Part shown: positions 21,265 through 43,350 of the stretch, piece by piece
Layout: every line of letters begins with the position of its first letter
Numbering within the stretch: the first letter of the stretch is position 1
Origin: Candidatus Uhrbacteria bacterium
Lineage (GTDB): Bacteria > Patescibacteriota > Patescibacteriia > UBA9934
DNA: 58,136 nt
NCBI GenBank assembly: GCA_903848275.1
Contig: CAINGB010000009.1
Span: 1 to 58,136, forward strand
Reading direction: 5' to 3'
The notes under the pieces: generated by a model
Database searches by the model: none
Seen by the model: the letters and a program-made list of their open reading frames with translations, nothing else
What the model was told of the DNA's origin: nothing
Position numbers and translations under genes: made by a program

Positions 21265-21350
21265 ACTAGAGATTTTCGTTAGTTGCCCGTATTATATACT
21301 AATTACAAGGATAAGTCTCTGTGATGTTACTAGTAGTTCTGTTGTGCAAA

Positions 21351-21392
21351 GCAAAGAGCCGCACCCCGAAGGATGCGGCTCAAGGCCTGGCC
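21351..21392. repeat. 42-bp direct repeat, copy 1 (contains terminator hairpin for the minus gene)
   Basis: Identical at 41 of 42 positions to 22548-22589. It contains GAGCCGCA and TGCGGCTC, which form a hairpin with a central TTCG on the minus strand and a T-rich stretch after it, placed just after the stop of the 21401-22444 gene. Confidence 0.85.
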
Positions 21393-22444: not shown

Positions 22445-22547
22445 GGTGAACCTCTTTTCTTGGTAGAAGGTGAAAGAACGGCCCCAAAATGGGACTGGGG
22501 ATTGTAGCATATTTTGCGAGATTAGTCAATAAAATCCCACTATTACA

Positions 22548-22589
22548 GCAAAGAACCGCACCCCGAAGGATGCGGCTCAAGGCCTGGCC
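22548..22589. repeat. 42-bp direct repeat, copy 2 (terminator of the Gmad2 gene)
   Basis: One base different from copy 1 (A for G at the seventh position). It lies five bases after the stop of the 22595 gene and forms the same hairpin on the minus strand. Confidence 0.85.
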
Positions 22590-27317: not shown

Positions 27318-28634
27318 CTAACGAGTCACGGATCCATCTTTTATAAACAGTTGGGATTTAATATGACCGAGTAAATCCCTTTTTTCATCCTTTGAGCCTT
27401 CTTTCAGAATATATTTAGCGCACGCATAGACATCGATGTCTGGCATAATTTCTGCGACTTTAGCGGTCGCCACATGTCCTCCGAGACTCGAAATCATCTT
27501 CGTAAGCCGATCAACTTCCTGCTTGATACGTTCTACTGCCGCGAGTTTGTTGATGTCTACCTTGTCGATGATTTTGTAGAGTTGATTGAGAAGTTCCTCC
27601 TCGCGTATATACGGCTGTTTGCAACCCGTCATCCAACGCTTCATGCATCCGTAGTAGACGTAGCGTTTTGTTGTTCCGTCCTTGAGCCGTTTCACTTTTT
27701 GATCGGCACTGATGCCCGATCCGCACACGCCGCATTTGAAGATTCTCGTGAATGCGAATTCGTGAGTTCCGGGCATCGCCTTGGGGGCGCACTTCATGAC
27801 TTCTTGAACCTTATCGTAAGTTTCTTTCGTAATGAGTGCCTCGTGTTTTCCGTCGTACCATTTGCCGCTTCCTTGCGGAAATTCGTACCGACCAGTGTAG
27901 AACGAGTTGTCCATCATGCGATAAATCATACTGAGCGTCACTTGTTTGCCTTTGCGTGTCGTCAATTTCATTTCGTCGTCGAGCCATCGTTTTACACTGC
28001 GCCCAGTCCAGCCTTCGTAGGCGACTTTGTGAAATGCTTCCTTAATGATCGGTCCGCGCACGGGGTCCATAAAGATTTTGCACGTGCCTTTTTCCGCGTA
28101 TTTGTCGTGTAGATATCCGAGCGGTGACATGTTCGGTCGAAAACCCATCTCGATTTTCGCACGGAATCCGCGTTTCACGTTCACACCCTTGTTGTCATTC
28201 TCTAGCTTCGCCTGTCCGCACATCATCATGAGCATGAACTTGTCGCTCGGTGAATTTGTAAATCTCGTACCGTGCGTAAGGATTTCTCGAAGCAGTCCTT
28301 GATCCATAAGGTCGATCACCGTTCCGAGATCGCCCGCATTACGACTGATGCGATCCGCCGCCCATGTCAGAATCCCGTCGAATTTCTTTTCTCGAATGTC
28401 CTCAATTAAACGATTAAACTCCGGGCGTGACCCGGAGCTTTTTGCAGAGTGACTTTCTCGACGTACTTCGACAACATTCAAGCCGTCTCTCGCGGCCAGT
28501 TCAAGTGCCTCCTTGACCTGACTTTCGATTGACAATGCCTGACGCTCGTCATCCTCCGATGATTTTCTCGAGTAAAGGCAGTATTTGATCGGCACGACCT
28601 TCTCTGGTTCGTTGTTCGTGTTTTGTGCGTACAT
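27318..28634 (-). CDS. Large serine recombinase (site-specific integrase)
   Basis: 438 residues. The N-terminal resolvase domain shows YSRKSSEDDERQALSIESQ (catalytic Ser near residue 25) and WAADRISRN (active-site Arg region). The recombinase domain follows with GYLHDKYAEKG and GRSVKRWLDDE. A zinc ribbon is given by FKCGVCGSG and GCMKRWMTGC, and a coiled coil by AAVERIKQEVDRLTKMI. This is the architecture of phage-type large serine integrases. The start is preceded by AAGGAG. Its stop overlaps the truncated cyclase gene, consistent with an attachment-site junction. Confidence 0.93.
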   Translation of the reverse strand: MYAQNTNNEPEKVVPIKYCLYSRKSSEDDERQALSIESQVKEALELAARDGLNVVEVRRESHSAKSSGSRPEFNRLIEDIREKKFDGILTWAADRISRNAGDLGTVIDLMDQGLLREILTHGTRFTNSPSDKFMLMMMCGQAKLENDNKGVNVKRGFRAKIEMGFRPNMSPLGYLHDKYAEKGTCKIFMDPVRGPIIKEAFHKVAYEGWTGRSVKRWLDDEMKLTTRKGKQVTLSMIYRMMDNSFYTGRYEFPQGSGKWYDGKHEALITKETYDKVQEVMKCAPKAMPGTHEFAFTRIFKCGVCGSGISADQKVKRLKDGTTKRYVYYGCMKRWMTGCKQPYIREEELLNQLYKIIDKVDINKLAAVERIKQEVDRLTKMISSLGGHVATAKVAEIMPDIDVYACAKYILKEGSKDEKRDLLGHIKSQLFIKDGSVTR

Positions 28635-29760: not shown

Positions 29761-32715
29761 CTATTTATGTTCGTTGACCGACTTTACAACGTGATCGAAC
29801 ATCTTTTCGCCGAAGTATGCCTTCAAGTCTGGATTCTTATCGAGCTTCTTATAGAAGTCGAAATGACGATTGAGCATTTCCACGAGTTCTTGACCAAGCA
29901 CCTCGTCAAACTTGATCTTCGCCGTATCACGGGCGTTGTTCTTAATAGAACCCTGCAACATCGGGTTATTCGCTAATCGTTCACCAAGCTGATTCGTGAT
30001 AACAACGTCTTCAAGTGAGAATTCTGTCCCGAAGCGGTCATTGATATCGGTGATGATTTTCGAGAGGCGATCTTGCTCCTTCACTTCTTCACTTCGTGTG
30101 CCGCTTTGCATCGGTTCGAGCGAGCCTTGCTCGTCCTCAAGACGAATCGCATCCTGACCACGGTGCACAATTTTGTATGATTCCATATCGACACTATCTA
30201 GCACTTCCGTCGGTAATTCCTCCTTGATTCGTGGGAGCTTCTTCAACAAAAGGCGCGTGAATGTGTAGAGCTTTTCCAGCTCTGAGCTTTCGTACGGGAT
30301 AATCTGCGAAGCAAACGCGTAACGACGAACGAAGTCCGTACACTTCTTTCGGAAGTCCTCCTGTTCCTGTGGAAGACAGTCTTCGAATTGCTGAACAGTT
30401 GCATCAAGAATGGCGTTGATCGTTGCCGGAGGAGCATTGTGGAACAGTTCTTGCACGAATCCGTCCACCTCGTGTTGCGTGAAAAGTTTGAACGAATACA
30501 AATCCCTTTCAAGATCATGGAGAATGTTCGGATCGGTACCTTCCGAGAGAACCGTTGTTGTGTAGTAAGGCTGGAATGACTCTTGAATATCACCCGCATC
30601 GTTTACGAAGTCGAGCACGAATACCTCATCCTTATCTGAAGTCGTACGATTCAATCGACTCAATGTCTGTACGGCACTGACTCCGCTCAACTTTTTATCG
30701 ACATACATGGAAGCCAGCAGAGGTTGATCGAACCCTGTCTGGAATTTTTCAGCGACAATGAGAAATTTGTACTCATTCTGTTCAAAAGTCTTTGCCGTAG
30801 TCGCTTCAGGAACACCGTTCATACCTCCTTCGGTATATTCAACCATCCCATCCTTTACCGTGCCCGAGAAAGCCACCAGAGCCCTGTAGGGATAGTTGTG
30901 TTCGCGCAGATAGGCATCCATGGCTATTTTGTACCGAACCGCGTGTAAACGCGATTTTGTCACAATCATCGCCTTTGCCTTGCCATGAATCTCCTTAGCA
31001 ATACGAGCACGGAAATGCTCAGCCATGATTTCCACTTTCTTCTGGATAGCATGCTCATGTTTCTCGACATAGCTAATCAAAAGACGTTGCGCCTTTTTCT
31101 TGTCGAATTCCGGATCATCCTCAACTTTCTTCAACAACGAAAAATATGCTTGATACGTTGTGTAATTCTTGAGTACGTCCAGAATGAATCGTTCCTCAAT
31201 GGCTTGTTTCATCGAATACAAACTGAACGGATAATACTTTCCGTCGATCGGGCTCTTTGTTCCGAACAGCTCCAGAGTTTTTTGTTTCGGAGTCGCTGTA
31301 AACGCAAAAAAGCTGATGTTGTCCGTTTTCACCTTTCGGCTGCGGAGCTTCTTCAGGATCATTTCTTCTGTCGTCTCAGGCTCTTCAGAATCCTGTTGCG
31401 CCGCTTCGTCGAGGCTAGACGTCGTCAGTGCTTCACGGAGATTCGCGGCTCCTTCGCCAGTCTGCGAAGAATGTGCCTCGTCGATAATCACCGCAAAGTT
31501 TTTCCCTGGGAGATTCCCAATCGAATCAACAATGAACGGAAACTTTTGAAGCGTAGTGATAACGATCTTCTCTCCGGTTTCTAACGCATCCTTCAGCTCC
31601 TGCGAGCCTTCGGTAATCGCCTTCACAACACCCGCGCGTTGCTCGAACTGCGTGACCGTATCCCGCAATTGGCGGTCGAGCACACGACGATCTGTAATCA
31701 CGAGAACGGTATCAAAGACCTTTTTGTCATCAGAGTTGTGTAACTCTGAAAGACGATGTGCCGCCCAGCCGATCGTATTGCTCTTGCCGCTACCCGCGCT
31801 GTGCTGAATGAGATAGTTCCGTCCCGCACCATTTTCTTTTGCATCTACGAGTAAACGCTGAACCGTATCGCGTTGGTGATAGCGAGGGAAGACAAGGGCT
31901 TCCTTGATGGTTTCCTTGCCTTTCTCGTCGGTACTCTTCAACTTTTGTAACGTGATGAATTTACCAATAAGTTCCAGAATACTCAGCTTCGTCCATACAT
32001 CCTCCCAAAGGTATGCCGTTTTGTATCCGCGGTCATTCGGCGGATTGCCAGAACCGCTGTTATATCCCTTGTTGAAAGGCAAAAAATACGTCTTGAGACC
32101 CGCGAGCTTTGTTGTCATGTACGCTTGATCCGCGTCCACGGCAAAGTGTGCCAAACATCGCTTGAAAGCCAAAAGAGGCTCTTTGTGGTCTCGATCCGTA
32201 CGGTATTGCTGAATTGCATTCCTGACCGTCTGTCCGCTCAGTTGATTCTTTAGTTCAATGGTGAAGATTGGGAGACCGTTCAAGAAAATAACGGTATCAA
32301 TGGAAAGATCGGGATTCTTTTCACTGTAATGCACCTGCCGCATGACGCTCAAGATATTTGCCTCATACAGACCCCGAGTTTCCTCGTTGATTCCAGAGTT
32401 CGGAGGGAAATATGCCATTTTAAAGCTCACACCATGATCGGTGAAACCGTTACGGAATACATCAAGCGCACCTCGTGTTTTCACTTCATCGGTCAACCGA
32501 CCAAACAAATGCTCATTCAATTCTTCTCCATGAATTTCTAACAGTTTCCCAACCGATTCGGGTTGCGTCGAGTCCAGAAACTCCAAAACCATCTCAGGAT
32601 CCAAACAAAGATTCTTGAGATAAAGTTGATTCGATTGCTTGCGATATCCGTTGGCATCGATGAGCTGTTTCTCGATGTACTCCTCGAAACCGATTTCTTT
32701 AGTGTTAGTTGGCAT
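29761..32715 (-). CDS. hsdR: Type I restriction enzyme HsdR (R subunit)
   Basis: 984 residues. The N-terminal nuclease shows LSIDTVIFLNGLPIFTIELKN (D...ExK-type motif). The motor has Walker A HSAGSGKSNT, IIDEAHSSQ (DEAH box), FTATPKQKT and the helicase C region with EKFQTGFDQPLL and SRLNRTTSDKDEVFVLDFVN. The C-terminal helical region binds the M subunits. HsdR translocates DNA and cuts unmethylated DNA far from the target site. Its start codon lies inside the 3' end of the reverse transcriptase gene (11 bases of overlap), so the two are tightly coupled. Confidence 0.95.
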   Translation of the reverse strand: MPTNTKEIGFEEYIEKQLIDANGYRKQSNQLYLKNLCLDPEMVLEFLDSTQPESVGKLLEIHGEELNEHLFGRLTDEVKTRGALDVFRNGFTDHGVSFKMAYFPPNSGINEETRGLYEANILSVMRQVHYSEKNPDLSIDTVIFLNGLPIFTIELKNQLSGQTVRNAIQQYRTDRDHKEPLLAFKRCLAHFAVDADQAYMTTKLAGLKTYFLPFNKGYNSGSGNPPNDRGYKTAYLWEDVWTKLSILELIGKFITLQKLKSTDEKGKETIKEALVFPRYHQRDTVQRLLVDAKENGAGRNYLIQHSAGSGKSNTIGWAAHRLSELHNSDDKKVFDTVLVITDRRVLDRQLRDTVTQFEQRAGVVKAITEGSQELKDALETGEKIVITTLQKFPFIVDSIGNLPGKNFAVIIDEAHSSQTGEGAANLREALTTSSLDEAAQQDSEEPETTEEMILKKLRSRKVKTDNISFFAFTATPKQKTLELFGTKSPIDGKYYPFSLYSMKQAIEERFILDVLKNYTTYQAYFSLLKKVEDDPEFDKKKAQRLLISYVEKHEHAIQKKVEIMAEHFRARIAKEIHGKAKAMIVTKSRLHAVRYKIAMDAYLREHNYPYRALVAFSGTVKDGMVEYTEGGMNGVPEATTAKTFEQNEYKFLIVAEKFQTGFDQPLLASMYVDKKLSGVSAVQTLSRLNRTTSDKDEVFVLDFVNDAGDIQESFQPYYTTTVLSEGTDPNILHDLERDLYSFKLFTQHEVDGFVQELFHNAPPATINAILDATVQQFEDCLPQEQEDFRKKCTDFVRRYAFASQIIPYESSELEKLYTFTRLLLKKLPRIKEELPTEVLDSVDMESYKIVHRGQDAIRLEDEQGSLEPMQSGTRSEEVKEQDRLSKIITDINDRFGTEFSLEDVVITNQLGERLANNPMLQGSIKNNARDTAKIKFDEVLGQELVEMLNRHFDFYKKLDKNPDLKAYFGEKMFDHVVKSVNEHK

Positions 32716-34075
32716 ATATTTTTCTTAGTGTAGCAATTCTTTTCTGTATTGCAGATGAATTTTTGTTGGTTGCTTTCATGAAAGCCATGACCTCGTAGTG
32801 GAATCCGTTGTGGAGTAGGCGTTCGGATAATCGATCTAGCGATGCCACGAAGTCATCCTTTTCCCTGTCGTGTAATCGCTCGTGAATTGCTGAAAATTGA
32901 TACGTTCTAGCGTCTTTAAGAAAATCGTCATCCAGATACCAGGAAAAAAGTTTAACTCTTTGAGAATAAGCGACTTTTTCCCAATTACAGGTTAAAGCAC
33001 GGTTCAGTAGTGGTAAACCACGAGCTTTTATTTTTTCTCGTTGGTCGCTGACGATTATCTTTGTCACCTCATCGATAAAATTATTTGATTTGTCCGGATC
33101 CTTGTTTGATCCAGGTTGAAGTAAGATATCAAACAGCTTATATGAACGGTACTCAATCATCTCATCAACAGTTCTGATGACCACCTTCTTTTGATTGATG
33201 GCTAAACCCAAAGCAAGCAGTTTTCTGGAAGCGCAGTAAATGACATGTTCAATTTGATCACGATTTTTTACAATGATTGCCTGGTCATCGGCGTATCGGA
33301 AATACTTTGCGCCAATTTCATCGCAAATTTTCTTGATGTAAATATCGTATTCTTGGAGATAAAAGTTCGCCAAAATTCGCGAGCAGTCAGACATGGCATC
33401 TTGTGGCAACCCTACCGTTTGAGGATTGTAATGATTGATCGACTTGTTCCAGAAATTTAGGAAATGAAAAAGAAGTGAAAGTTCATCACGATATTTCCCG
33501 TCAAAAACCTCTCCTATTTTACGTTTTAAAATGTCTAAATTAATCGAATCGTAAAAATTAGCGATATCTAACTCAACTACGTATCCCTCGCTGGATTCCT
33601 TCAGTGAAACGTAAAGTTTCGCGTTGAAATCCTTGTACGCGATATACCACGCCGTTGGCGAAAACGACCAAGACGGCATTGATACTGTTGGATCGAAAAG
33701 ATTTTCAATCTTTTTTTGTATTTCTACTTCTTCTGCATCTCTATAGTTTAAGCCACTGATGCTCCAGCCGCCGAAAGTATTTTCGGTTCTATTTCGAGCA
33801 AGTTTATGCTCGAGTCGAATGACGCAATAGTAATAAACGATGTAGTCCTTAATAGTAAAAACAGGAGAGATACGAGCAACACCAGATCCTTTGTTGTGAG
33901 CAATGTAAAATTCTGGCTTTACTGGATGATATGTTTTGCCTTTAATTTCCGTATAAACCAACTTCAAAAGTTCCTCTTTTTCTTGGTAGGAAGAGGGTGT
34001 GTTAAGAGGCAAATTCTGGAATGCTTTCCAAAATTTACGCCCAAAAATCTTTTTGAATGATTTATAGCCGATCAT
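32705..34075 (-). CDS. Reverse transcriptase inside the type I R-M operon
   Basis: 456 residues. RT motifs: GSGVARISPVFTIKDYIVYY (fingers), YVVELDIANFYDSINLDIL (motif A, Asp170), GLPQDAMSDCSRILANFYL (motif B region) and YFRYADDQAIIV (YxDD, residues 261-264), then LAINQKKVVIR. All catalytic aspartates are kept. The last ~150 residues are helical with no nuclease, maturase or other domain that I can see. It fits the broad group of non-retron, non-intron defence-type bacterial RTs, but the exact class cannot be set without a search. It lies six bases after hsdS and overlaps hsdR, so it belongs to the operon. No intron or retron RNA is evident beside it. Confidence 0.9.
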   Translation of the reverse strand: MIGYKSFKKIFGRKFWKAFQNLPLNTPSSYQEKEELLKLVYTEIKGKTYHPVKPEFYIAHNKGSGVARISPVFTIKDYIVYYYCVIRLEHKLARNRTENTFGGWSISGLNYRDAEEVEIQKKIENLFDPTVSMPSWSFSPTAWYIAYKDFNAKLYVSLKESSEGYVVELDIANFYDSINLDILKRKIGEVFDGKYRDELSLLFHFLNFWNKSINHYNPQTVGLPQDAMSDCSRILANFYLQEYDIYIKKICDEIGAKYFRYADDQAIIVKNRDQIEHVIYCASRKLLALGLAINQKKVVIRTVDEMIEYRSYKLFDILLQPGSNKDPDKSNNFIDEVTKIIVSDQREKIKARGLPLLNRALTCNWEKVAYSQRVKLFSWYLDDDFLKDARTYQFSAIHERLHDREKDDFVASLDRLSERLLHNGFHYEVMAFMKATNKNSSAIQKRIATLRKIYAN

Positions 34076-38276: not shown

Positions 38277-38374
38277 GTTATCCGCTATAAATTGCCAAAT
38301 TTCCCCAAGGTTCCTTCAATTTCGCAGAAGACCCATAAGGGTAAGGAAGGGCTGTGAATAGCCAATGAAATCGC

Positions 38375-38403
38375 TTTACGTGAATTGGTTTGTAAGCTAT
38401 TAT
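38375..38403 (+). promoter_or_regulatory. Promoter of the structured RNA
   Basis: TTTACG (38375-38380), a 17-base spacer, TATTAT (38398-38403). The transcription start falls near 38409-38411, the beginning of the closing stem of the structured element. The rest of 38277-38374 shows no gene. Confidence 0.6.
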
Positions 38404-38406
38404 TTA

Positions 38407-38531
38407 GGAGCTTCACTACTCAGCCTATACAAGGGCCGAATTTCGGCTTAACCGGATCGCGCGTAATAAGCGGCGTATCCGGTTAAAACAGTTCTAGCAC
38501 GATCCGTGCTTGGGCTGGGTAGTGAAGCACC
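38407..38531 (+). ncRNA. Four-way-junction structured RNA, unknown class
   Basis: A 19-base closing stem pairs 38407-38425 with 38513-38531 (two non-Watson-Crick positions; the inner one is a U-G pair on the plus strand and an A-C mismatch on the minus strand). Inside are three hairpins: GCCGA/TCGGC (38435-38447), TTAACCGGAT/ATCCGGTTAA (38448-38486, with a further stem inside) and AGCACG/CGTGCT (38496-38510). A promoter starts transcription at its 5' border. It is not a tRNA and lacks the T-box bulge. It could be a free RNA or the leader of the nuclease gene at 38583. Its proximity to an RT-bearing operon is notable, but a link is unproven. Confidence 0.6.
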
Positions 38532-38582
38532 ACCGGCATACGTCGCTTTTTGTATTATCGAAAGCGATTCCCGGGATGCTTT

Positions 38583-39716
38583 ATGGAATCGACTTTTTTA
38601 GAAAATTTGTTATCAAATCCGATCGGGCTTTTCGAACTTGAGAAGCGCATATCTTCTTTCAATGTGTTCGAGGCAACTGGCGCGGTGCGCCGAGAACTTA
38701 GGCACTCGGACTTTATCGGGTTCCTTTTTGATCCATCCGAAACTCACGGACTCGACGAGACCCTTTTTCGCATATTTTGCGAGAGCTTCAACATCAACAT
38801 TTCTCAAACTCCAATCGTCACCGTTTCCCGCGAGTGGGAGCACATCGATATCATGGTTCGCGACCGGGCGAACAAGGTTATCCTCGTCATCGAAAACAAA
38901 ATCGACACGTCGGAACACTCAGATCAGCTCCAGCGATATCGCAGAATTGTTGACGCCGCGTACCCGGATTACGCGCGTCATTATTTTTTTCTCACGAAGA
39001 CCGGAGAGGAACCGTCGGATAGCCACTATAAAATCCTCAGTTACGCGGATATCCGTTCATTTGTGGAGCGGCTAGCAAGCGCGTCCGGAACAGGTGACGT
39101 CGCAACCATCCTTATCCATTACGCCAACATGATTGAACGCCATTTTATGCCAGACAACGAAATAGCCCAGCTCTGCCGAAAAATTTACACGGATCACCGC
39201 AGAGCCATTGATCTCATCATTGAGCACAGACCAGAAGGCGGTGAGGACGTCTTCGACAAGCTCCGCGAGCTGATCGACCAGCGTCCGGATTTCGAACTCG
39301 ATCACTCCGACGTGCACCGTATTCGGTTCGCCGTTCCCGCTTGGGATAGTCTTCCTGACATGAAGACATCCAACTGGACGCCGAGCAAGCGATTCGTTCT
39401 CTTTGAAGCGAAGAACAATGTCGACGGAACCGAGCGCGTTCAACTCAAGTTGTTTCTTGGTCCGACGCCAAGTAGAATCAGAGAGGAGTTGTTCGGGCAC
39501 GTCCAAGGAGCGAAAGAAGCTTTCCGCCATAGCCGTCGCGAATTGGGCGAAAAGTGGGCGCAGGTCTACAATATCGAGCTTCTCGGTTCGGACGACGTTC
39601 AACAGGACGACAAGCTGAAGATGCTTGAAAACAACTGGAACCACTTTTTGCGACAAGATTTTCCACTGATTGATCAGAGTATCCGCGCATTCATCGAGTC
39701 CCAGGATTCCAAATAA
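38583..39716 (+). CDS. PD-(D/E)XK nuclease superfamily protein
   Basis: The 377-residue protein has a PDDEXK_4-like core: HIDIMVRDRANKVILVIENK gives Asp89 and Glu104-x-Lys106, followed by the QLQRYRRIVDA helix. The C-terminal half is of unknown role. It resembles proteins found in defence islands and beside R-M genes, possibly nicking or cutting DNA. ATG 38583 is preferred (MESTFLENLLSNPIGLFELE); an upstream in-frame start adds eleven residues. The leader of about 170 nt carries the structured RNA. The next gene starts five bases after its stop. Confidence 0.78.
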   Translation: MESTFLENLLSNPIGLFELEKRISSFNVFEATGAVRRELRHSDFIGFLFDPSETHGLDETLFRIFCESFNINISQTPIVTVSREWEHIDIMVRDRANKVILVIENKIDTSEHSDQLQRYRRIVDAAYPDYARHYFFLTKTGEEPSDSHYKILSYADIRSFVERLASASGTGDVATILIHYANMIERHFMPDNEIAQLCRKIYTDHRRAIDLIIEHRPEGGEDVFDKLRELIDQRPDFELDHSDVHRIRFAVPAWDSLPDMKTSNWTPSKRFVLFEAKNNVDGTERVQLKLFLGPTPSRIREELFGHVQGAKEAFRHSRRELGEKWAQVYNIELLGSDDVQQDDKLKMLENNWNHFLRQDFPLIDQSIRAFIESQDSK

Positions 39717-39721
39717 AGCCT

Positions 39722-41188
39722 ATGTTGACCAAATCCAACTTCATGCAATTTCTCCGTTGTTCCTGCGAGCTGTGGCTCGTGAAGCAGCGGCCGGATTTGG
39801 TTCCGCCAATCGATCCTGCTCTCCAGCGCATCTTCGACGAAGGAAACGTGGTCGACGCGTGGGCACAGAAGCTATTCCCAGGTGGCGTGAACGTCGACGG
39901 GTTCGGTAAGCCTGCCGCCGAGAATACGAAAAAGGCGATCGCGAATGGTGCGACTATTTTGTTACAGCCGACGTTCATGACGGCGAAGCTTTCTTGTCGT
40001 TGCGACATTCTTACGAAGAACGCTGACGGCTCGTGGGACATCTACGAGGTAAAGAGCTCAACGGACGTCAAAGAAGAACACATTACCGACGTTGCCTTCC
40101 AACGCATCTGCATCGAAGAGGCTGGCATTCGTATTTCGCGGACGTTCCTCGTCCATATCAACAACCAGTACGTTCGTAACGGTGAGATCGACCCGGAACA
40201 GCTGTTCTCCAAAGTCGACGTCACACACGAAGTCGAAAACGTCATGCCGATGGCGAAGAAGGAAATCCCTCGTGCTCTCGCCGTACTCGATTGGGAAAAG
40301 ATGCCGAGACTCATGCATGTCATGTCCTGCAATGATCCAGCCGAATGCGAATTCCTCGCCTGTTATTTTTCGGAATTTAAGGACGACGATAAATATTCCA
40401 TCGCTGCATCGCTTCCCAAAGAAAAGCTCGTCACTTTCATCGAACGCGGCTTGATTACACCCGACCAAGTTCCAGCCGATGTTATGGCTGAACTTGGTGA
40501 TATCAAGTTACCGAACACGAAGGCTGAGCCGACGCTTTCGATTGATAAGGATGCGATCAGGTCAGAACTGGACGGTTTGCAGTACCCGCTCTACTTCCTT
40601 GATTACGAAACTCAACACTCCGCTGTCCCTACGTTCGATGGCTACCGACCATACCAGCAGATGGTTTTTCAATATTCCGTCCATGTCGTGCGCGAGCCGG
40701 GAATGGAGCCAGAACACTACGAATTCCTCGCCGATCAACCGAAAGATCCCGCATCGATGGTCGCAGAGTCTCTCAAGAAACATATTGGCGATGTCGGAAG
40801 CGTCATCGTTTGGAATGCTCGTTTCGAAGCTTCGCGCAACGCGGAGATTGGTGAACACCTGCCCGAGTTCGCGGACTTCATGGCTGACATCAACAACCGC
40901 ATCTACGACCTCATGATGATCGTGAAGAAGGGCTACTACGTCGACTCCCGTTTCGGCGGCAGCGCATCTATTAAGCGTGTTTTGCCCGTCATGTGTCCCG
41001 AGCTGTCGTACAACGATCTCACCATTCACGAAGGAGGAACGGCATCCGCAAGCTGGGCGACGCTCACGAACCCAGCGATTCCGGTCGATCAGCGAGAGCA
41101 GTTGCGTAAGGACATGCTCGCGTATTGTGGATTGGACACTTACGCAATGTATGCGATTTTTCTCAAGCTCCTCACGTCCTGTTCGTGA
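39722..41188 (+). CDS. DUF2779 protein: Cas4-like nuclease plus RNase H-fold exonuclease-like domain
   Basis: 488 residues. The N-terminal domain begins KSNFMQFLRCSCELWLVKQR and has KLSCRCDILTK and WDIYEVKSST (acidic residue and E-x-K), like RecB/Cas4-type nucleases. The C-terminal domain has YFLDYETQHSAVP (DxE), VIVWNARFEASRN and MLAYCGLDTYAMY (late Asp), a DnaQ-like 3'-5' exonuclease layout typical of DUF2779. Together with the preceding nuclease it forms a two-gene unit. The 3' end overlaps the convergent terminase gene by 17 bases. Confidence 0.8.
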   Translation: MLTKSNFMQFLRCSCELWLVKQRPDLVPPIDPALQRIFDEGNVVDAWAQKLFPGGVNVDGFGKPAAENTKKAIANGATILLQPTFMTAKLSCRCDILTKNADGSWDIYEVKSSTDVKEEHITDVAFQRICIEEAGIRISRTFLVHINNQYVRNGEIDPEQLFSKVDVTHEVENVMPMAKKEIPRALAVLDWEKMPRLMHVMSCNDPAECEFLACYFSEFKDDDKYSIAASLPKEKLVTFIERGLITPDQVPADVMAELGDIKLPNTKAEPTLSIDKDAIRSELDGLQYPLYFLDYETQHSAVPTFDGYRPYQQMVFQYSVHVVREPGMEPEHYEFLADQPKDPASMVAESLKKHIGDVGSVIVWNARFEASRNAEIGEHLPEFADFMADINNRIYDLMMIVKKGYYVDSRFGGSASIKRVLPVMCPELSYNDLTIHEGGTASASWATLTNPAIPVDQREQLRKDMLAYCGLDTYAMYAIFLKLLTSCS

Positions 41189-42929
41189 TTTTTGTAGTGA
41201 CAGAATTGGTTGATGGTTGTGCGGAAGTCATAGGAACTCTTTCTTGCATCCGTTCTTGCTTACGCAGGATCACGGAAGCTTGATATTCTCCGCGCGTGAA
41301 TTGCTTTCTCGGCGGCGGTGCAATTGATCTCCAGACCCCAGGCGCAATCCATTCCACACCGTCAGTTTTATAACGTGCGTTCATTGCCAGTTCGATCTCG
41401 GGCATCTTTTCGACCGCTTTTATCTGAATGTCGGCTTCTTGCCATGATTGTTGTAAATCGATCGGAATGATCTGTTTATAGTCACCGGTCGCCATTCCGA
41501 TCTCCATCTTCGCTCGATTTTTTGTGTGTACCGAAAGAATAAGAGTCGTTAGTGCATCGACAAGATCATCATGCTTTGCCGCTCCAAAGTTCACGAGTTG
41601 CTCAATCAATGCATTCGCGCCGCTCCTCGGGAAAAGCACCATACCGGTCTTTATCAATGCGCTGATACCGTATAGCCTTTCTCGCTTGTCCATCTGTCCG
41701 GGCAAATATTCCGTAACGCGTCGAACGCCGAGAACTTTTAAGTGTTGTCCGAAAACCGCTTGGTAGGCTACTTTTTCGTAGAACACTTCGACGTTTTGTT
41801 TGCTGCCGATAGCATCAATGAGTGACACGCATGCCCTGATAGATGGGTCGAATTCTAATTGAGCGTTTAAGACGTTTGGGAGAATGTAAATTTTCTGATC
41901 GACTCCATGACCCTCAACGATCGCTGGGATCATCGCGGTCTTGTCGCGCCCCTGCTTTGTACTGCTTGCGAGATCGACGCCCAAAACACGAAATGTCGAT
42001 CCTGTGAATTTGTAATCCGGCTCGTAGTAGACGATGTCTTTCTTCTCAATAATCTGCTCGTCGGGCGGAATGATTTCGAGCCGGTATTCCTGTCTCCACG
42101 TTTTGATGGATGGAAACGACTGCTTGAACGCCTCGATGCTCGCTTTGTCCGGAAACTTTCCAGGCCAGGCACAGACACCTTTCTTACCGATGAGCGGACA
42201 CTTGATTACCTCGGCATCGAACGTCCCCGCCTTCACCTTCGCGATGATGCGGTTCGGCAGGCTGTCCTCGTGAAGGTTGTTCGCGATCATGATGACGCGC
42301 GTGCCGATGTCGCCCGCGCCGAGCAAGTCGCTATTGAACCAATCCTCCAGCTTGTCGCGCGATTCCTGCATGCGAACCGACGCGGTGTCCTCGATGTCGT
42401 CAAGAATGAGCACGTCGGGGCGGTAGTGCTTGAAACGCACGCCGCGCATCGACTGCTCGACGGAGATGCCCGCGATCTGCGCGTCGTACTTCTGGAACGT
42501 CAGCGCGGTTGAGTTCCACGGCGTGGTTTCCTCAGACACCGCGCCGAAGTCATTCTGAAGCATCGTGTTCGTCTCGAACTCTCGCTTGATCGCGTCGATG
42601 AATTTCTTCGTCTGTTCGACGGTCTTTCCGACGATAAGGACGAAGTGTTTCTGTTGTTCGCCGAGAATTGCCCAGATCGGGTACGACATGGTGCAGATCG
42701 TGCTCTTCGCGCTTCCACGGAACGTCATTGCGACCGCGAACCGAACCTTGTCGTCCTGCGTGAGGTCGAAGAGCATCCGGTGGATGTCGGCGGACGGGTA
42801 TTTGATGTAGTCGCCGAAATACGCCCCAAAGAATGCCAGGTGCGACTTCCGCGCAAGGTCAATTCTCGCCGTCTTGTTGTTCATCACCAGATCCAGCGTC
42901 TGCTGGTCCAGCTGGTTGCTGTTTGTCAT
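41172..42929 (-). CDS. terL: Phage terminase large subunit
   Basis: About 585 residues. The ATPase has a deviating Walker A FRGSAKST, and Walker B VLILDDIED. The nuclease domain shows VLGVDLASSTKQGRDKTAM and AAKHDDLVDALTTL (catalytic Asp residues), as in phage packaging motors that move DNA into procapsids and cut it. The start at 42929 (MTNSNQLDQQTLDLVM) overlaps the small subunit gene by 71 bases; the open frame reaches 42980. No portal or capsid genes follow. Confidence 0.9.
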   Translation of the reverse strand: MTNSNQLDQQTLDLVMNNKTARIDLARKSHLAFFGAYFGDYIKYPSADIHRMLFDLTQDDKVRFAVAMTFRGSAKSTICTMSYPIWAILGEQQKHFVLIVGKTVEQTKKFIDAIKREFETNTMLQNDFGAVSEETTPWNSTALTFQKYDAQIAGISVEQSMRGVRFKHYRPDVLILDDIEDTASVRMQESRDKLEDWFNSDLLGAGDIGTRVIMIANNLHEDSLPNRIIAKVKAGTFDAEVIKCPLIGKKGVCAWPGKFPDKASIEAFKQSFPSIKTWRQEYRLEIIPPDEQIIEKKDIVYYEPDYKFTGSTFRVLGVDLASSTKQGRDKTAMIPAIVEGHGVDQKIYILPNVLNAQLEFDPSIRACVSLIDAIGSKQNVEVFYEKVAYQAVFGQHLKVLGVRRVTEYLPGQMDKRERLYGISALIKTGMVLFPRSGANALIEQLVNFGAAKHDDLVDALTTLILSVHTKNRAKMEIGMATGDYKQIIPIDLQQSWQEADIQIKAVEKMPEIELAMNARYKTDGVEWIAPGVWRSIAPPPRKQFTRGEYQASVILRKQERMQERVPMTSAQPSTNSVTTKITNRT

Positions 42930-43350
42930 ATGGTTCCATGTTGGTAGAGATAAGTCCGAGCTTTTGGTAAGCATCGGCAAGCATCTGTTTTTCCTTGTCG
43001 GTCAGCTCCTGCTTTACGGGAGTCGTGATCTGCACCTTGTTCGCGTACGCCTTGTGACGGTTGCGGAGCCAGAACGAAATTGCGGCGAAGTTCTGTTCCT
43101 TGATCGCGCTGATGAGTTGCGATTCTGCCATGTCGTTGATGAATCCCGTTCCTTCGCTGAGTGCCTCCTCAGTTTGCGTAGCGAACGTCGCATCTTCCGC
43201 GATCCATCGATAATACGTCGCGCGGGAGACGCCGAGCTTCTCGCACGCAACCTGCACGATGGGAATCTTGCGAAGATGATCGACGAGAAGCTTTTTCTGT
43301 TCCTCCTGTCGCTTGTCGATGAGTGGGCTATTTCGCTTTATCTTTGGCAT
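42859..43350 (-). CDS. terS: Phage terminase small subunit-like protein
   Basis: The 163-residue protein has an N-terminal helix-turn-helix (IPIVQVACEKLGVSRATYYRW, about 29-49), then ATFATQTEEALSEGTGFINDM and SAIKEQNFAAISFWLRNRH, matching the phBC6A51-type helix-turn-helix small terminase. The C-terminus is Gly/Gln-rich and acidic. It recognises packaging sites and recruits the large subunit, whose gene follows and overlaps. Confidence 0.82.
   Translation of the reverse strand: MPKIKRNSPLIDKRQEEQKKLLVDHLRKIPIVQVACEKLGVSRATYYRWIAEDATFATQTEEALSEGTGFINDMAESQLISAIKEQNFAAISFWLRNRHKAYANKVQITTPVKQELTDKEKQMLADAYQKLGLISTNMEPYDKQQPAGPADAGSGDEQQDGEN

Follow-up and report, generated by a model that had tools for sequence, protein, structure and literature searches.

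Bacterial transcription attenuators combine a promoter, a structured leader, a premature terminator and a gene (PMC2965389). The HMP-PP (thiS) riboswitch is a terminator-embedded aptamer, where the pseudoknot and the intrinsic terminator use one strand adjacent to the U-run and form mutually exclusive ON and OFF folds in the 5' leader (PMC6478431). In the fluoride (crcB) transcriptional riboswitch, a pseudoknotted leader domain is set against a downstream terminator (PMC11077080). The Patescibacteria RNA described here, with a closing stem (P1), a long-range stem (P2) and a pseudoknot helix (P3) before a U-tract, resembles the three systems in these respects and differs from each of them in others. 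The HMP-PP RNA, which lies ahead of thiamin genes in Firmicutes, is far smaller (PMC6478431), whereas the Patescibacteria RNA is a ~140 nt P1/P2/P3 leader found ahead of very diverse genes. In comparison with the fluoride riboswitch, it has no Rfam match, its P3 reaches the U-tract, and its P1 is much longer. Unlike in general attenuators, no leader peptide was recognised, and the structure is conserved phylum-wide while the genes it would regulate differ. A literature search for attenuators of Patescibacteria found no paper.

The search of Rfam 15, including the T-box and the known riboswitches, gave no match at the gathering threshold and none in permissive scans of 16 loci (E<=5 / E<=2), in agreement with the first-pass annotation of this DNA, according to which the RNA fits no recognised class. 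One Rfam RNA, LOOT (RF03000), is present at locus L080 (2745-2862), before the gene of a small membrane protein resembling the DUF4190 proteins encoded downstream of the leader RNA. LOOT is placed similarly to the leader RNA and also has a hairpin and a T-run after it, but it matches none of the scanned leader-RNA copies.

The locus and its prophage setting

The window, i.e. the whole analysed stretch of 58,136 nt, is one contig (C9) of a 0.98 Mb Candidatus Uhrbacteria genome (48 contigs, 99% complete), and the named records homologous to it come from Ca. Uhrbacteria and other Patescibacteria. The part between 27 and 46 kb looks like a prophage, with a serine integrase gene, terminase subunits, ParB/methylases and a repressor. 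Its cargo is a type I restriction-modification (R-M) operon that includes a reverse transcriptase (RT) of the RVT_1 type (32705-34075), the order being HsdM, HsdS, RT, and then an HsdR-like protein. A 43-nt direct repeat, 98% identical and terminator-like, is found elsewhere in the window (21350-21392 and 22547-22589).

The hairpin-rich stretch 38407-38531 folds on the + strand at -69 kcal/mol (z -9.4), and none of 200 shuffles is as good. The element extends past position 38531 to the U-tract at 38547-38551. The features of the region are as follows (annotated hairpins are those of the first-pass annotation):

27318-28634, serine integrase gene, prophage region
38375..38403, + strand, sigma-70-like promoter (TTTACG-17-TATTAT)
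38410..38425, + strand, 5' strand of the closing stem P1 (16 bp in the window)
38433..38449, + strand, hairpin HP1 (GGGCCGA-ATT-TCGGCTT; constrained fold)
38453..38462, + strand, 5' strand of P2, pairing with 38497-38506; 5' side of the second annotated hairpin
38468..38482, + strand, 5' strand of P3 (AAGCGGCGTATCCGG) in the P2 loop, pairing with 38533-38548; 3' side of the second annotated hairpin
38497..38506, + strand, 3' strand of P2 (GCACGATCCG), overlapping the third annotated hairpin (38497-38509)
38513..38528, + strand, 3' strand of P1
38533..38548, + strand, 3' strand of P3 (CCGG(C)ATACGTCGCTT) with one bulged C, entering the U-tract
38547..38551, + strand, terminator U-tract (TTTTT)
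38583..39716, + strand, downstream gene, PD-(D/E)XK nuclease (PDDEXK_4)
39722-41188, DUF2779/Cas4-like gene, next after the nuclease gene
41172-43350, terminase subunits, prophage region

Upstream of the promoter (38330-38400), a block AAGGGTAAGGAAGG ... GCCAATnAAAnCG is common to the window and the second copy of the RNA in the same genome (L002/L070). It is partly present in L064/L011 too, and is possibly a regulator site.

Copies of the RNA and the genes that follow them

By sequence comparison, the hairpin-rich stretch belongs to a previously uncatalogued RNA family that occurs throughout the Patescibacteria, a little-studied phylum of tiny bacteria. The comparison covers 93 copies, 49 from the first round and 44 later ones found with covariance model R3. 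The second copy in the window's own genome (C1:42472) is 71% identical, and its P1 is of another sequence with the pairing kept. Eight further copies were obtained by blastn in 145 relatives. Covariance models R1-R3, none of which contains P3, were used for the phylum-wide search. They placed the RNA in 12 of 73 genomes of the order, 17 of 381 of the class and 19 of 380 of the phylum sample, the genomes being a MAG-based sample in which most loci have only ~1.5 kb of flank. Within family f106 the RNA occurs in 27 of 41 genomes, with nine copies in one of them (G771, roughly 0.8 Mb; L115, L124-L130) and seven in another. The single scan reaching beyond Patescibacteria, a pattern scan of 84,980 genomes, gave 7 matches, all of them in Patescibacteria.

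The RNA is also present in two IMG/VR viral contigs, in both of which the RNA cassette has terminase genes beside it, with type I R-M genes upstream. Other patterns scanned in viral contigs gave nothing besides these two, and blastn against GenBank phages gave no match. A first-round blastn match (G016/L012) was dropped as merely terminator-like, and model matches on the opposite strand that overlap true copies are palindrome artefacts. Tandem copies are observed in L126 (250-574, minus) and L136 (1034-1626, minus), with a TATAAT-like box for each copy; in the L126 tandem (L126a, genome G771) there is no ORF between the first copy and the second.

A same-strand ORF starts 9-119 nt (median 36 nt) after the U-tract in 49/49 first-round copies, by a search that would pick up some ORFs by chance and with Pfam support for part of the genes only. 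This supports the earlier idea that the RNA is the leader of the nuclease gene. The downstream protein is readable in 89 of the 93 copies, and 60 of these 89 proteins contain a membrane-like segment vs 47 of 240 other ORFs of the same loci, as estimated by a simple and crude hydropathy test with a background set that includes mechanical ORFs. The downstream genes are mostly those of membrane proteins or of defence. They include the PD-(D/E)XK nuclease gene of the window and, as R-M genes, those of GmrSD, an N6/N4 methylase, a C5 methylase, and an MmeI-like enzyme. Others encode a serine recombinase, a trypsin-like protein, Zn-ribbon membrane proteins, DUF4352, DUF4190, and Ig-like proteins, and many are without a family. 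In the nine-copy genome, several copies precede related exported proteins (NITLTINNEKTLTLS), which form a candidate surface-protein regulon.

The first-pass annotation had also connected the RNA with its neighbours, as a template or regulator of the RT or as an R-M regulator. The RT gene is indeed located ~4 kb away in the same prophage region, as could suit an RNA that serves the RT as template, primer or partner, or a regulator specific to the R-M operon of the window. However, when sought by tblastn in all fetched loci, most spanning just ~1.5 kb per side, the RT was found in the window only, and thus a role as its template or partner is very unlikely; the linkage expected of a retron or another RT-associated RNA is seen at this one locus. 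In addition, the remaining copies precede unrelated genes, and the R-M operon is divergent from the RNA, with its start upstream of the RNA promoter. A partnership with the RT or with this particular operon is hardly credible. What stands of the wider R-M idea is that some copies precede R-M genes, but mostly membrane or exported genes follow, and the R-M link is incidental.

The closing stem, P2 and the pseudoknot P3

P1 is common to all 93 copies; its sequence changes and the pairing stays. Strong covariation was observed in the relatives, the check that the first-pass annotation had named, and with two-sided changes in 12 of 14 P1 pairs the closing stem it described is real. The P1 pairing energy in 49 copies is -27.8 kcal/mol for the native strands vs -12.1 kcal/mol with the 3' strands swapped between unlike copies, and for 47 of the 49 no swap is as good. 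In respect to the strand, G-U pairs number 71 in P1 of the 49 copies, against just 5 internal A-C oppositions, therefore the + strand is the RNA, the one that the first-pass annotation had favoured. Taken alone, the promoter of the window is weak, because a promoter scan of that 1 kb gave 2 promoter-like sites vs 1.2 expected by chance. In most of the 49 homologues a -10-like hexamer is found at a nearly constant distance from P1, with +1 at the P1 foot (expected at about 38407-38410 in the window), and this conserved spacing supports the annotated 17-base-spaced promoter with a start at the edge of the closing stem.

The same data bear on another reading, in which the element would fold as DNA and be a mobile repeat such as a MITE or an attC-like recombination site. 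Such an origin is suggested by the prophage location of the window, the two copies in viral contigs and the varying neighbouring genes. Nevertheless, a promoter is nearly always found before the element, with a U-tract and a same-strand ORF after it, and the tolerance of G-U on the + strand points to RNA. The window's genome contains no near-identical copies, and a MITE or IS-end repeat was rejected since the second own copy is divergent (71%), with P1 replaced but still pairing. We consider a mobile repeat, a match to which the first-pass annotation had listed against its own reading, highly improbable.

Inside the closing stem, three hairpins in a four-way junction had been annotated, but the pair counts favour another fold, P1 + HP1 + P2 + the pseudoknot P3. 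P2 is formed by the 5' half of hairpin 2 and the 5' half of hairpin 3, and its main helix shows two-sided changes in 8 of 9 pairs. In the P1+P2+P3 model 93.0% of cells are paired, 24 pairs show two-sided changes, and the covariation is 0.420 (controls: 0.172 shuffled, at most 0.108 slid), whereas the model of hairpin 2, hairpin 3 and a local hairpin before the U-tract gives 84.7% of paired cells and a covariation of 0.186. On these values, the four-way junction was replaced by P1-P2-P3 as the putative functional fold, and two of the three annotated hairpins are, by the pair counts, a weaker, competing fold. Several copies (L068, L069, L088, L093) lack hairpin 2 (HP2) or have it only in a very weak form.

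P3 comprises 9-18 bp between a GCGGCAUCCGGU-type strand, located between the P2 halves, and a ACCGGGUGUCGC-type strand preceding the U-tract; it was missed in the first-pass annotation because the annotated segment, 38407-38531, does not include its 3' strand. It is present in 49/49 first copies and in 44/44 new matches. P3 has an energy <= -18 kcal/mol in all but one of the 93 copies (92), a level that 3.8% of mononucleotide shuffles reach, and the gap between P3 and the U-tract is 0 nt in 77 copies and 1 nt in 15 (n=93). In the covariation alignment of 24 sequences the two-sided changes fall mostly in P1 and P2, with three pairs in P3, so that P3 is supported chiefly by the strand swaps and by the out-of-sample copies. 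Because MAFFT shifts parts of P3 out of register when it aligns the divergent group (A6), the strand swaps were made free of any alignment. For the 49 copies the native P3 has -21.1 kcal/mol vs -10.7 kcal/mol swapped (no swap is as good in 48/49), and for the 44 out-of-sample copies, which come from the P3-free model R3, -21.8 vs -13.4 kcal/mol; these controls are conservative in places, as the swaps involve related copies. In the window, a GU inserted in the 5' strand of P3 is matched by a change in the 3' strand. In the near relatives L051 and L060, P3 shows a compensatory change (G-C in L051 vs A-U in L060) at the spacer, where the local hairpin does not reach.

The local hairpin before the U-tract (GACACC/GGUGUC in most copies) has a mean energy of -9.3 kcal/mol. 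It is weak in the window copy (-4.4 kcal/mol), and in the window, L064, L070, and L069 it is weak yet P3 is kept. In the window (38544-38569), L070 and L064, the U-tract region is also able to pair with a downstream AAAGCGA-type strand, giving an extra hairpin absent from most copies.

Proposed control of transcription termination

The RNA is located between a promoter and a gene on the same strand, as is typical for a cis-regulatory leader, and in terms of pairing potential it has the helix, the U-tract and the mutually exclusive alternative pairing of an attenuator. It is probably the 5' leader of the downstream gene, in which a choice between P3 and the competing hairpin would govern transcription termination. 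The polymerase would stop at the U-tract or read through into the gene, depending on the fold of the leader. Since P3 and the local hairpin need the same strand before the U-tract, we infer that they are alternatives, the balance of which may be tipped by a signal such as a ligand, a protein or the folding kinetics. HP2 would mask the 5' strand of P3 in most copies, and formation of P2 would free it. With a rough, assumed pseudoknot penalty of 9 kcal/mol, the two folds are near in energy (mean difference -4.8). As the downstream genes are so diverse, one biosynthetic metabolite is not a likely signal.

As to polarity, we lean slightly toward P3 being the terminating helix, because it is 0-1 nt from the U-tract in 92 of 93 copies, often pairing into it, while the local hairpin mostly stops 2 nt short of that point, and because P3 is kept in copies, the one of the window among them, that have a weak local hairpin. 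The opposite polarity is slightly less favoured; P3 would then be an antiterminator, the arrangement proposed for the HMP-PP and fluoride riboswitches. If P3 is the terminator and the local hairpin terminates too, both states would be OFF.

The RNA could also be a stand-alone, trans-acting small RNA, with P1/P2/P3 as the mature fold, the U-tract as a normal 3' end, and the gene reached by leaky read-through or being a mere neighbour. Nearly all copies have a promoter and a terminator of their own, P3 is retained where the local hairpin is weak, one tandem copy is without its own ORF ahead of the next copy, and a genome may carry as many as nine copies. Against this, the ORF in 49/49 copies has the same orientation and sometimes begins only 9-23 nt past the U-tract, where a separate promoter has no room. 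The sequences of P1 and P2 are so variable that there is no conserved seed, and the competing alternative pairings resemble a switch. A small RNA is, on balance, unlikely. Quite improbable, too, is a passive leader without sensing, in which P1-P3 would shield the 5' end of the mRNA or fix a constant low expression of accessory genes. The stable 5' structure from +1 agrees with it, and so do the very diverse downstream genes, which suggest no one metabolite; protection, however, needs neither the conserved strand competition (HP2, local hairpin, P3) nor a U-tract directly after P3. A leader that switches termination is the preferred reading.

One could go further and regard the family as phylum-wide, riboswitch-like Patescibacteria leaders, where the loop strand forms the terminator helix as a pseudoknot and one common signal (e.g. 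host attachment or growth state) controls scattered surface-protein and phage-borne defence genes; this wider scheme is tentative, and we find it rather doubtful. The family is of note for its phylum-wide covariation, up to nine copies per genome, lack of an Rfam entry, and bias to membrane/exported and mobile genes. With P3 abutting the U-tract, it would represent an unusual terminator or antiterminator formed by a pseudoknot. A recent review describes the mechanisms governing Patescibacteria differentiation as completely unknown (PMC11665869). Regulation in Patescibacteria is almost unknown, and the leader RNA offers a concrete, testable regulatory element, which may also be usable for expression control in organisms that have had no such tool.
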